Of a DNA stretch of 35,788 bases, positions 27,911 to 33,224 are shown in pieces; position 1 is the first letter of the stretch; each line of letters starts with the position of its first letter. The position numbers and the translations under genes are program-made. Under the pieces are notes generated by a model. That model was not told the DNA's origin, did not search any database, and saw only the letters and a list, made by a program, of their open reading frames with translations. Source of the DNA: Pseudoxanthomonas suwonensis (GTDB lineage: Bacteria > Pseudomonadota > Gammaproteobacteria > Xanthomonadales > Xanthomonadaceae); the NCBI RefSeq assembly GCF_010093235.1, contig NZ_PDWP01000032.1, positions 1 through 35,788 on the forward strand, given 5' to 3'.

Positions 27911-29113
27911 CTAGCGCAGGAGGTTGAAGAGCGACAGCCCCTGCATGCGGGTGAACACGGTCTGCGCCGTCTGCAGCGCGGTGCTTTCCAGCTGGAAGCG
28001 GGTGATCGCGTCCGCGTAGTCCAGGTCGCGCATGCCGGACAGGGTGGTCTTGAGCGTGACCGCATTGGCCTCGCGCAGCGAGGCCGCGTCGTCCACCAGG
28101 GCCAGCTGGGCGCCGCCGGCGGCGCGGGCGTCGATCATGTTCTCGGCCGCGCGCGCGACATCGCGCATGGATGCCTGCAGGGCGTTGCGCCTCGCGGCCT
28201 TGTCCCCGGCGGTGACCACCGGCGCCTCGAGCGCGTCGATCATCTCCTGCACGGTTGCGAACACGTCGCGCGTGCCCGCCGGGCCGATCTGCAGCTCGTC
28301 GCCGTCCGCGGGCTGGCCGCTGACCGAAAGGCGCAGGCCGCCGAACTCGATATCGGTCTTCGGCGCCCAGGTACCGCCGCCGACCATGTTGTTGTCCGCG
28401 TCGAACACTTCATAGCCGTTGCCGGCGGTGAAGCGGATCGTATAGCTCTCGCCATTCCAGCCGCCTGCGGTGCTACGGCTGAAGCTCTCCAGTATCCCCG
28501 TACCGCTGTTGCCGGCGGCCATGCGTGCGTCCACGGTGCCGTCACCGGTGCGGATGCGCATGAAGACTTCGCTGCCCGGCAGCGTGTCCTGCACGAAGCT
28601 GCCCGGCGCGATCTCGACCGAGCGCTGGGTCTGGTCGCCGTTGTAGGCGATGCCGCCGGCGACCCGGCTGAACGGCGCGACGTCGTCGGCCGCTCCGCCG
28701 AAAAGATAGCGCCCGGTGCCGTCCGTGCTGTTGGCCAGGCTGATCAGGTTGTCGCGGATCGTGCGCAGCTCGGCGGCGATGGACTTGCGGTCATCGTCCG
28801 AGAGCGTGTCGGTGTTGGCCTGGACCGCAAGCTCGTTGATGCGGATCATGTCGTCGCCGACCAGCGTCAGCACGTTTTCCTGCTGGCCGAGCCGGTTGCT
28901 CACCGTATTGGCGTTGAGGCCGAAGCGCTCCAGCTCCGCGAGGGTGCGGTCCAGGCCCACGGCGGCGCCCGCGCCGACCGGATCGTCCTTGGCGGTGACG
29001 ATCTTCTTGCCGGTGGCGACCTGCTGCTGCAGCGCCGAAAGCTGCTTCTGGCGCGCCAGCATGGTGGCCAGCGCCGTGTCGAACATCATGCTGGTGGAGA
29101 TGCGGCTGCTCAT
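27911..29113 (-). CDS. flgL: FlgL, hook-filament junction protein (HAP3)
   Basis: A 400-residue flagellin-related protein. The N-terminus is MSSRISTSMMFDTALATMLARQKQLSALQQQVATGKKIVTAKDDPVGAG, and the C-terminus is LSGMRDLDYADAITRFQLESTALQTAQTVFTRMQGLSLFNLLR; both are canonical FlgL ends. FlgL sits between FlgK and the filament. ATG at 29113 overlaps the flgK stop (ATGA). It is the last gene of the flg operon and is followed by a strong terminator. Confidence 0.97.
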   Translation of the reverse strand: MSSRISTSMMFDTALATMLARQKQLSALQQQVATGKKIVTAKDDPVGAGAAVGLDRTLAELERFGLNANTVSNRLGQQENVLTLVGDDMIRINELAVQANTDTLSDDDRKSIAAELRTIRDNLISLANSTDGTGRYLFGGAADDVAPFSRVAGGIAYNGDQTQRSVEIAPGSFVQDTLPGSEVFMRIRTGDGTVDARMAAGNSGTGILESFSRSTAGGWNGESYTIRFTAGNGYEVFDADNNMVGGGTWAPKTDIEFGGLRLSVSGQPADGDELQIGPAGTRDVFATVQEMIDALEAPVVTAGDKAARRNALQASMRDVARAAENMIDARAAGGAQLALVDDAASLREANAVTLKTTLSGMRDLDYADAITRFQLESTALQTAQTVFTRMQGLSLFNLLR

Positions 29114-30987
29114 CGGGCGACTGCGCTCAGGATGGACTGGAACATGGTGTCGGCGGTGGAGATGATCTGCGCCGCGGCCTGGTAGGCCTGCTGCAGGCGG
29201 AGCATGTTCGCCGCTTCCTCGTCGAGGTTGACGCCGGCCACCGCGTCGCGCGCGGCCTTGGCGTTGTCGTGGATCACCTGCTGGGCATCGGCCGCGTACT
29301 CGGCCTGGCGCGCGTGCGAGCCGATCATGGTGGTGAGGCCGCCGACGGCGCCGTTGAGGCTGATCGTGCCGCCGCTGACCACGCGTGCGTCGTCCAGGTT
29401 CGCCAGCCGGTTGGCATTGCCGTTGTCCGCCGAGCCGGGGCCGGTGCGGGAGATCGTGAACTGGTCGCCCGCCGCGGGGATGCCGTCGAGCACCACGCTC
29501 CAGCCATTGGCGCTGATCCGCTGCCCTGGGGTGAAGGCGAACGGACCGGCGCCGTCGATGGTGTACTGGCCTGCGTCCAGGAACTCGATGACCGCGTCCT
29601 GGAGCAGGTCCGGATCGCCGGCGTCCTCCACGCGCAGGTCAGACAGCACGCCGCTGCCGACGTTGGCCAGCGCGGCGCCACCGCGTACCGGCGTGGCGGC
29701 GGCGATGCGCGAAGGATCGGTGATCGCCACGTTGATCCCGGTCGCGGCGCCGGCGGTCGGCTGCAGCAGGAAGCGGGCGCCCAGTGCCGGCGTTCCGGAC
29801 CCCTCCAGCGAGATGCCGTCGCCCACGAACGGATCGGCCGCGGTGCCGCTACCGGTCATCGGCACCGCCTCGCCGGTGTCGGCGCGCATTGCCATCCAGC
29901 CGGTGTCGCCGAAGCGCAGCACCAGGTTCTGGCCGGTCAGCGCGGAGACGTCGGATACCTGGGCCTGGATCGCGGCGCTGCCGGTGTTGCGGGCGTTGCC
30001 GTTGACCTGCGGCGCGGGCAGGCTGAAGAAGGTGCCGCCCATCGCCCCGTACAGGTCCATGCCGGCTGCGTGGCCCTCGTTGAACGTGGTGGCCATCGCC
30101 CCCGCGATCCGGCCCAGCTCGGCCGCGGCCGGATCCAGCACGGTATCGCGGAACTCCACCAGGCCGCCAATGCGTCCACCGAGGGCGCGCTGGTCGAGCA
30201 GGGTGGTGGTGCCGCCGCCCTTCAGCGCCAGCTGCAGGCGCTCGGGACGGTAGGGATCGGCCACCGTGGTCAGGGTGGAGGCCTCCATGCCCACCACCAG
30301 CGGCTGGCCGCCGGCGGTGAACACGTTGATGGGACCGCCGTCCTGCATGACCGCGGTGCCGCCGGTGTAGCCGACCAGCTGGGCGACCAGGTGGTCGCGG
30401 CGGTCGAGCAGGTCCGGCGCGGCGCGGCTCGCGTCCGAGCCAATCTCGCTGTTGATGCGCGCAATCTCCGCGGCCAGGCGGTTGACCTCGCTGGCGCCGG
30501 TGACCAGGCCGTTGTTGACTTCCGAATCCAGCGAACGCAGCTGGCCGTCCAGCTGGCGGAAGCGCGCCGCCAGCGTGCTGGCCTCCTTGAGCAGGTTCTG
30601 CCGCTCGGCGGTGCCGCCGGCATTGGAGGACAGCGCGCTGACCGAGTCGAAGAAGTCCGACCACACGCCGGCCAGGTTGGTGGCGGTGTCGGAGAACAGC
30701 GAATCCAGCCGGCCGGTCAGGGAGGACAGCTGCTGCAGCCGGGCCAGTTCTCCACCGGTGTCCAGCAGGCGCGAGGTGGCCAGCTCGTCGGCCATGCGGC
30801 GGATGCCGCTGATCTCGGTGCCATTGCCGACATAGCCGTAGCCGTAGTTGGTGGGGTTGCGCGCGGCCAGCTCCACCCGCTGGCGGGTGTAGCCCTCGGT
30901 GTTGACGTTGGCGACGTTGTGGCTGACCGTCGACAGTGCCCGCTGGAAGGCGAGCAGGGCGCCGGTGCCGGTGGAGAGGACGGACAT
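29110..30987 (-). CDS. flgK: FlgK, hook-filament junction protein (HAP1)
   Basis: A 625-residue protein. The N-terminal rod/hook motif is MSVLSTGTGALLAFQRALSTVSHNVANVNTEGYTRQRVEL. The FlgK helical block DSLFSDTATNLAGVWSDFFDSVSALSSNAGG follows, and the C-terminus GVNLDEEAANMLRLQQAYQAAAQIISTADTMFQSILSAV matches the family. The large variable middle is normal. AAGGAG precedes the ATG at 30987; this Shine-Dalgarno sequence lies in the last codons of flgJ. Confidence 0.98.
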   Translation of the reverse strand: MSVLSTGTGALLAFQRALSTVSHNVANVNTEGYTRQRVELAARNPTNYGYGYVGNGTEISGIRRMADELATSRLLDTGGELARLQQLSSLTGRLDSLFSDTATNLAGVWSDFFDSVSALSSNAGGTAERQNLLKEASTLAARFRQLDGQLRSLDSEVNNGLVTGASEVNRLAAEIARINSEIGSDASRAAPDLLDRRDHLVAQLVGYTGGTAVMQDGGPINVFTAGGQPLVVGMEASTLTTVADPYRPERLQLALKGGGTTTLLDQRALGGRIGGLVEFRDTVLDPAAAELGRIAGAMATTFNEGHAAGMDLYGAMGGTFFSLPAPQVNGNARNTGSAAIQAQVSDVSALTGQNLVLRFGDTGWMAMRADTGEAVPMTGSGTAADPFVGDGISLEGSGTPALGARFLLQPTAGAATGINVAITDPSRIAAATPVRGGAALANVGSGVLSDLRVEDAGDPDLLQDAVIEFLDAGQYTIDGAGPFAFTPGQRISANGWSVVLDGIPAAGDQFTISRTGPGSADNGNANRLANLDDARVVSGGTISLNGAVGGLTTMIGSHARQAEYAADAQQVIHDNAKAARDAVAGVNLDEEAANMLRLQQAYQAAAQIISTADTMFQSILSAVAR

Positions 30988-30990
30988 CGC

Positions 30991-31713
30991 TTATCTCCTT
31001 GTGATGCCGCTGGCCATGTCGCCGGCGGCCGCCAGCGCGGTGTTGGCGGTGCGTGCGGCCACGCCGGCGATCGCCTGCATGGCGCGGTTCACGGTCGGGC
31101 CGTTGGCGATCGCGGTGATCTTGGCGGCGTAGGCCGGGTCGGTCGCGTAGCCGGCGCTCTGCAACGCCTGGGCGAAGCGGCGCACGTCGCCGCCGGCCTG
31201 CAGCGCCTTCTGGTAGCGCGGGTTGTTCTTCAGCATGCGCACGTAGTCGGCGAAGCTCTCGGCGGGCGTGGCATAGGCACGGAACTGCGCCGTCTCAGTG
31301 CGGCGCTGGCCGTCCACGTACTCGTGGGTGCGGGTGGTGGCGCGTTCGCCGCTCCACCCACTGGCCTTGATGCCGAACAGGTTGTTGGCGCTGCCGCCGC
31401 CGTCGCGCTGGATCTGGCGCCGGCCCCAGCCGGTCTCCAGCGCGGCCTGCGCGACCAGGGCGCGTGCGTCCACGCCCAGTTCCTGCGCCGCCGCCTGTGC
31501 CTGGTCCCAGATGCTGGCGACGAAGCGTTCCGGGCTGCGCGGGGCGAATTCCTCCGCGGCCAGCGCGGCCACGCCGGTCCCGGCGGAAGCCACCGCGGCC
31601 TCGGGACCGGCCATCAGCCGGCGCACGAGGTTGTCCAGCGGCGAGCTTTCGCTGGTGGAGCCGTCGCGGCCGGCAATCACGTCCAGCGCACGCGCGGCCT
31701 CCGGACCGATCAC
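30991..31713 (-). CDS. flgJ: FlgJ C-terminal half: peptidoglycan hydrolase domain, separated by an in-frame stop
   Basis: The glucosaminidase (GH73-type) domain is intact. It has ALVAQAALETGWGRRQI with the expected catalytic Glu (residue 93 of this part), then NNLFGIKASGWSG, RTHEYVDGQR and SFADYVRMLKNNPRYQKAL. It is in the same frame as the N-terminal half; only the TAG at 31740-31738 separates them. GTG at 31713 is the first plausible restart, but no Shine-Dalgarno sequence precedes it, so independent translation would be weak. Read-through would give a 367-residue FlgJ. In intact FlgJ this domain opens the peptidoglycan layer for the rod. Confidence 0.8.
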   Translation of the reverse strand: MIGPEAARALDVIAGRDGSTSESSPLDNLVRRLMAGPEAAVASAGTGVAALAAEEFAPRSPERFVASIWDQAQAAAQELGVDARALVAQAALETGWGRRQIQRDGGGSANNLFGIKASGWSGERATTRTHEYVDGQRRTETAQFRAYATPAESFADYVRMLKNNPRYQKALQAGGDVRRFAQALQSAGYATDPAYAAKITAIANGPTVNRAMQAIAGVAARTANTALAAAGDMASGITRR

Positions 31714-31737
31714 AGCATCGGCGCCGGCCGCCTGGGC

Positions 31738-32094
31738 CTAGGCAAGGGCAGCCGCGGCCGCGCGGGTGGGACCGGGACGTGCCTGGATGCTGTTGTCCAG
31801 CGGCTTGGCGCCGTCCGCGTCGATTCCACTCTGGCGTGCCAGCTGGCGGGCGATCATCGGCGCCAGGCCCAGGCCCTTGCCGGAGGTCATCGCCTGGGCC
31901 AGCTGCTGGTCGTACATGTCGCGGAAGGTCTGGTTCTCGCCCGGGAACAGCGAGTCGCCGAAGCTGGCGTCGCGCATGCTCTTGACCAGCATCTGCGCGA
32001 ACTGGCCTTCGAGCTGGCGCGCGACATGCTCGACCCGCGCGGCGTCGGGCCTGGACTGGGGGGACAGTTCCAGCGGTCGGGCGTCGAGGCGCAT
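31738..32094 (-). CDS. flgJ: FlgJ N-terminal half: rod-cap domain, ending at an in-frame amber codon
   Basis: A 118-residue product with the rod-binding domain: ARVEHVARQLEGQFAQMLVKSMRDASFGDSLFPGENQTFRDMYDQQLAQAM, then GLGLAPMIARQL. In the family this part caps the growing rod. The frame stops at TAG (31740-31738) in an Ala/Pro-rich linker, just before the hydrolase half. The next codons (GCC CAG GCG) suggest the stop replaces CAG. ATG at 32094 shares a base with the flgI stop (TGATG). It may be a true nonsense mutation, a sequencing error, or a functional split. The rod-cap domain itself is complete. Confidence 0.85.
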   Translation of the reverse strand: MRLDARPLELSPQSRPDAARVEHVARQLEGQFAQMLVKSMRDASFGDSLFPGENQTFRDMYDQQLAQAMTSGKGLGLAPMIARQLARQSGIDADGAKPLDNSIQARPGPTRAAAAALA

Positions 32095-33224
32095 CAGATC
32101 ACTTCCAGCTCCGCGCGCAGCGCGCCGGCCTGCTTGAGGGCCTCGAGGATGGCGATCAGGTCGCCGGGGGCGGCTCCGACCTCGTTGACCGCGCGCACGA
32201 TCTCGTCGAGCGTGGTGCCGCCCTCGAAGCGGAACATGCGGCTGCCGTCCTGTGAGGTGCTGACCGTGGAGGTGGGCGCGGTCACGGTGCCGCCGCCGGC
32301 GAAGGCGCCGGGCTGGCTCACCTGCACGCCTTCCTGGATGGTGACCGTCAGTGCGCCGTGCGCGACCGCCGCAGGCATCACCCGCACCTGCGAGCCGATC
32401 ACCACCGTGCCGGTGCGGGCGTTGACGATGACCTTGGCCGGGGCCGAGCCCGGGGTCAGTTCCAGGTTCTCGATCTGCGACAGGAAGGTGATGCGCGTGC
32501 CCGGATCCGACGGGCCGGCCACCGCCACCGTGACGCCGTCGACCGCGCGGGCCACGCCTGGGCCGTAGACGCGGTTGATCGCGTCGACCATGCGCGCGAC
32601 GGTGGTGAAGTCGTTGCGGTTGAGGTTGAGGGTGATGTCGCCGCCGCCGTCCAGCACGTTGGGCAGGGCGCGCTCGACCGTGGCGCCATTGGGGATGCGC
32701 CCGGCGCTGGGGATGTTCACCGCCACGCGCGAGCCGTCGCGGCCCTGGGCGCCGAAGCCACCGACCACCAGGTTGCCCTGGGCGATGGCGTAGACCTGGC
32801 CGTCGGCGCCCTTCAGCGGCGCCATCAACAGCGAGCCGCCACGCAGCGAGACCGCGTTGCCGATCGAGGAGACGGTCACGTCGATGGTCTGGCCTGGCTT
32901 GGCGAACGGCGGCAGTTCGGCATGGATGGCCACCGCGGCCACGTTCTTCAGCTGCGGGTTGACGTTGGCCGGCACCTGCACGCCCAGCTCGGCCAGCATG
33001 TTCTTCAGGCTCTGCACTGTGAAGGGCGCCTGGCTGGTGCGGTCGCCGCTGTTGTCCAGGCCGACCACCAGGCCGTAGCCGACCAGGGCGTTGCTGCGCA
33101 CGCCGCCGACCTGGGCCAGGTCCTTGATGCGCTCGGCGCCGGCCGGGCCGGCGGCCAGCGCCAGCAGGCCCAGCACGCAGGCGAGGGCACGGCGGCCGGG
33201 GGAACGGTTGCGGGAGGTTGCCAT
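32094..33224 (-). CDS. flgI: FlgI, P-ring protein
   Basis: A 376-residue protein with a Sec signal peptide ([20 protein letters not shown] then [21 protein letters not shown]). The conserved P-ring blocks follow: [61 protein letters not shown], and [41 protein letters not shown] at the C-terminus. FlgI forms the bushing in the peptidoglycan layer. The start is 8 nt after the flgH stop. Confidence 0.98.

Follow-up and report, generated by a model that had tools for sequence, protein, structure and literature searches.

An In-frame TAG Codon Separates the Rod-cap and Hydrolase Halves of flgJ in a Draft Genome of Pseudoxanthomonas suwonensis

Results

The window, the whole 35,788-nucleotide stretch of Pseudoxanthomonas suwonensis DNA that was analyzed, carries flgJ on the minus strand between flgI directly upstream (32094..33224, minus strand; NF003676, 456.5 bits against a cut-off of 300) and flgK directly downstream (29110..30987, minus strand; TIGR02492, 313.2 bits against a cut-off of 170.75), the placement seen for two-domain FlgJ genes. 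Translation of positions 32094-30991 of this strand gives a frame that begins with ATG and runs for 118 codons to one TAG (31740-31738), continues through 248 open codons and ends at TAA (30993-30991). The single TAG between two same-frame halves that a first-pass annotation had described is thereby confirmed, and the two FlgJ domains do not share one uninterrupted frame. Ten other flagellar proteins encoded in the window all match flagellar families, nine of them above the curated cut-off and FliD below it.

The 5' part of flgJ (31738..32094, minus strand) encodes a 118-residue rod-cap half that ends at the TAG and matches the Rod-binding family PF10135 over residues 38-84 (E 1.9e-17). The 3' part (30991..31737, minus strand), translated from GTG 31713, matches the Glucosaminidase family PF01832 (E 2.2e-36), its GH73 domain. 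Scanned separately against TIGR02541, the halves cover positions 18-106 and then 139-291 of a 294-position profile, in the expected order. In alignments with FlgJ hydrolases of solved structure, two glutamates of the hydrolase half (motifs ALETGWG and HEY) have counterparts, the first being replaced by alanine in chain 3k3t_A; passages of the Salmonella FlgJ work (PMC4752226) name these two glutamates, whose counterparts were placed here by alignment. The family motifs said to be kept in both halves, including the catalytic glutamate, are present, and the TAG lies, as had also been proposed, in the Ala/Pro-rich linker between the rod-binding and GH73 domains. That two halves in the same frame each hold one FlgJ domain, in order, is not chance. 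The locus resembles the two-domain FlgJ of beta- and gammaproteobacteria (TIGR02541) in having the rod-binding domain followed by GH73, both glutamates and the flgI-flgK placement, and departs from it in that a single TAG interrupts the linker, whereas the genus genes compared are continuous.

Among named sequences, the best match to the hydrolase half is from Pseudoxanthomonas sp. J31 (85 per cent), and two genomes of the genus, G006 and G013, show 85 per cent DNA identity to the window across flgJ. FlgJ was found in 12 of the 16 other genus genomes searched and not in the remaining 4; the genus comparison uses 11 of these 12 and omits G012 on account of a frame-shifted flgJ and a genome completeness of 57 per cent. 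This comparison with close relatives, suggested at the outset as a check, found flgJ in one piece in all 11 genomes, so that the split is common to none of the genus rows (0/11). At the column of the TAG, 10 of the 11 rows have tyrosine and one has a gap. A wider alignment of 36 relative rows, in which some genomes appear twice and the linker is unreliably aligned beyond the close genus rows, has tyrosine at this column in 13 rows and either a gap or some different residue in the other 23, with no row having glutamine. Descent of the TAG from a glutamine codon, CAG, which the flanking codons had been taken to suggest, is contradicted by the close relatives and was rejected. A block of the linker just before the TAG (31741-31779, minus strand) is partly conserved, with GPTRAAA occurring in 8 of the 11 genus FlgJ rows although the rest of the linker is variable.

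A search of 297 genomes of the family returned FlgJ matches in 163, and among the matches listed the window genome alone has an internal TAG in FlgJ. Internal TAA or TGA codons were flagged in 15 of the rows among the matches listed, all of which were retrieved and aligned; 13 align through both domains with no stop. The other two align in the hydrolase half only, with the linker outside the aligned part, L205 having a stop at the very end and L197 having none. L205, on a contig of the same length as that of L028, is probably the same record, and the flgJ frame of L028 is continuous. No report of such a flgJ split appears among the literature matches listed. In Pseudoxanthomonas sp. NC8 (L029; also L098, from G012, completeness 57), flgJ keeps the same frame at both ends and has a middle unlike the family, as if two indels offset each other; these are probably indel errors of that assembly.

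We examined the constraint on the GH73 part by pairwise Nei-Gojobori dN/dS, using our own script. The ratios are 0.10 for the window against G006, 0.12 for the window against G013 and 0.12 for G006 against G013, and with the outgroup G003 the window gives 0.25, G006 gives 0.36 and G013 gives 0.28. Private amino acid changes number 3, 4 and 4 in the GH73 part and 8, 4 and 12 in the linker for the window, G006 and G013, respectively. In this descriptive comparison of dN/dS and private changes, the hydrolase half does not look less constrained in the window lineage; either the stop is therefore very recent, or it is erroneous, or this half remains in use. Relaxed selection on this half, considered as a candidate, was not seen (GH73 dN/dS 0.10-0.12).

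To estimate the background of in-frame stops, 80 stretches totalling 1.6 Mb of this genome were scanned for stop codons flanked before and after by coding-like sequence; the first 0.4 Mb was also scanned with other thresholds, a run that picked up the flgJ stop of the window as well. The scan gave 31 candidates (23 + 8), of which 30 were judged by eye to be gene-gene junctions. The one true interruption besides flgJ is a TAA in the frame of a TonB receptor (L213, 7658-7656, minus strand, contig C64 of the window genome, G000), both pieces of which match PF00593, in order. Among the 16 other genus genomes only G006 gave a full-length DNA match to this locus; it has tyrosine at the position of the stop, and its frame is open across the 41 residues compared. 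A control scan of 0.4 Mb of G013 gave 9 candidates, one of which (L243, plus strand, 11112, TGA) may be another in-frame stop, in a frame with a motif suggestive of an ion channel. Point stops thus have a low background in these genomes. Tyrosine codons account for about 11 per cent of single-base stops under uniform substitution rates and the codon usage of the window, so that two of two stops at tyrosine columns would arise by chance with a probability of about 0.012, a figure that concerns two cases seen after the fact; the coincidence is a lead only.

Termination at TAG appears ordinary in this organism. Of 841 gene-like frames in 1.6 Mb of the genome, 49 end in TAG, which is therefore a normal terminator here. 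RF1 is present, and a missing RF1 was accordingly rejected as a candidate. The search for an amber suppressor tRNA that the first-pass annotation had called for found no CTA anticodon among the 46 tRNAs typed in the genome, a set that is incomplete, since it lacks tRNA-Ile(GAT) and tRNA-Ala(TGC), a gap that probably stems from unassembled rRNA operons. The only tRNA-Tyr found has the anticodon GTA. The genome also has tgt, whose loss in Vibrio cholerae raises readthrough of UAA and, less, of UAG, according to passages of PMC11703503.

The first in-frame restart codon past the TAG, a GTG (31711..31713, minus strand), is preceded by no Shine-Dalgarno match longer than 3 bases, which bears out the earlier statement that it lacks such a site. 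A second in-frame GTG (31591..31593, minus strand), still before the GH73 domain, has GAGG 5 bases upstream, a weak site. The flgK start has AAGGAG at 7 bases, but nothing beyond a 3-base match precedes the start of flgL; because flgL does without a longer site at its own start, such absence at a restart codon is weak evidence. No hydrophobic leader was visible after the TAG when the translations were inspected by eye. No second GH73 domain was found in the window genome, and a second GH73 enzyme replacing the lost half was rejected as a candidate on this ground. The genome has four SLT domains, which are at most candidates for a flagellar role.

Discussion

We consider a recent, ordinary nonsense substitution yielding a cap-only FlgJ to be the best reading of this locus and a reasonably probable one. 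A single-base substitution would have struck the linker of an ordinary two-domain flgJ, at a codon that is tyrosine in the close relatives; translation would end at the TAG, yielding a FlgJ of 118 residues with the rod-cap domain and no peptidoglycan hydrolase, and the 3' half of the gene would remain in the DNA as an undecayed remnant. Arguing for a nonsense substitution are the lone TAG in an otherwise open two-domain frame, the 11 uninterrupted genes of the genus, the GH73 dN/dS of 0.10-0.12, the lack of a CTA tRNA among those found, the presence of RF1, the ordinary use of TAG as a terminator and the family matches of the ten other flagellar proteins. We infer from the assembled letters that the organism itself carries the stop and makes no product from the hydrolase half, which is probably untranslated. 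Against this, the undecayed state of the hydrolase half is just as compatible with an error or with continued use, and the genome has no other GH73 domain, so that its loss could matter to the flagellum.

The four origins offered by the first-pass annotation did not fare alike: a nonsense mutation and a sequencing error stand as the likely ones, and readthrough and early gene fission found little support. A base-call or assembly error, with an intact flgJ in the organism and a TAG only in the draft, ranks second and is rather unlikely. The genome is a draft (3.42 Mb in 66 contigs), the second half of flgJ is free of decay, the comparable genus genes are uninterrupted, the window's ten other scanned flagellar proteins each match the expected family, and there is a second isolated in-frame stop in 1.6 Mb, all of which would suit an error. 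If both stops were errors, however, about 86 wrong coding bases would be expected in the approximately 1.6 Mb (a random coding substitution creating a stop with a probability of about 0.023), and completeness is 100 with contamination of 0.16. Such a number of wrong bases would seem high for a polished short-read draft. Readthrough, in which a leaky TAG would allow some full-length FlgJ, perhaps with tRNA-Tyr as a near-cognate reader, is very improbable. It would account for both in-frame stops of the genome falling at tyrosine columns, when tyrosine codons would supply about 0.11 of random single-base stops at uniform rates, but the pattern comprises two cases, spotted post hoc, the second resting on one relative, and the stop is conserved in none of the 11 genus rows, TAG is a normal terminator in this genome, the sole tRNA-Tyr found is GTA, no CTA tRNA is among the 46 and tgt is present. 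A more specific version, to which we give hardly any credence, is that the ordinary tRNA-Tyr misreads UAR usefully, so that stops at former tyrosine codons are tolerated; the little full-length FlgJ made would then be enough for a protein needed in few copies per flagellum, and the stop would be nearly neutral.

The remaining alternative is a functional split, with a cap-only FlgJ and a separately started GH73 protein arising through reinitiation or gene fission, which we regard as likewise very improbable. The intact family motifs of both halves, the position of the break between domains, the weak GAGG 5 bases before GTG 31593 and the hydrolase half showing no sign of relaxed constraint are what such a split would predict, and other bacteria are known to pair a single-domain FlgJ with a separate hydrolase (excerpts of PMC8517470 and PMC7277832). 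The systems concerned are Rhodobacter FlgJ/SltF and Borrelia FlgJ/BB0259, and the window product up to the TAG would resemble them in being a cap-only FlgJ. Unlike theirs, the window hydrolase half is GH73, lies in the same frame, has no recognizable ribosome site at its first restart codon and shows no leader by eye; the known separate partners of single-domain FlgJ are SLT enzymes, and the SltF of Rhodobacter, in excerpts of PMC7277832, has a Sec signal. Lacking the FlgJ N-terminus, a hydrolase made from the second half would probably stay in the cytoplasm, unlike SltF, which uses Sec. Fission in particular is little supported, since the split is shared by none of the relatives in which the linker could be checked (0/11 genus rows and none of the 13 flagged rows that align through both domains), the first restart codon has no recognizable ribosome site and no leader was seen by eye.

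With a nonsense substitution as the preferred reading, a close parallel is from a Xanthomonas genome, in which, as given in excerpts of PMC3826837, 27 of 137 pseudogenes have in-frame stops and 25 of these 27 have a predictable C-terminal peptide. The window flgJ is like these in having a point stop after which a C-terminal peptide can be predicted; that genome, as those excerpts describe it, was deep-sequenced and fully assembled, whereas the window comes from a draft assembly. As it stands, the locus is one more point-stop pseudogene or a draft base that needs checking. Should the stop prove genuine in a strain that swims, the locus would offer a natural test of whether a two-domain FlgJ can spare its GH73 half, in a genome with no second GH73. 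Elsewhere in the genus, G006 (L103) and G008 (L104) each carry a second stretch resembling the GH73 part of flgJ, at 71 and 70 per cent, respectively.
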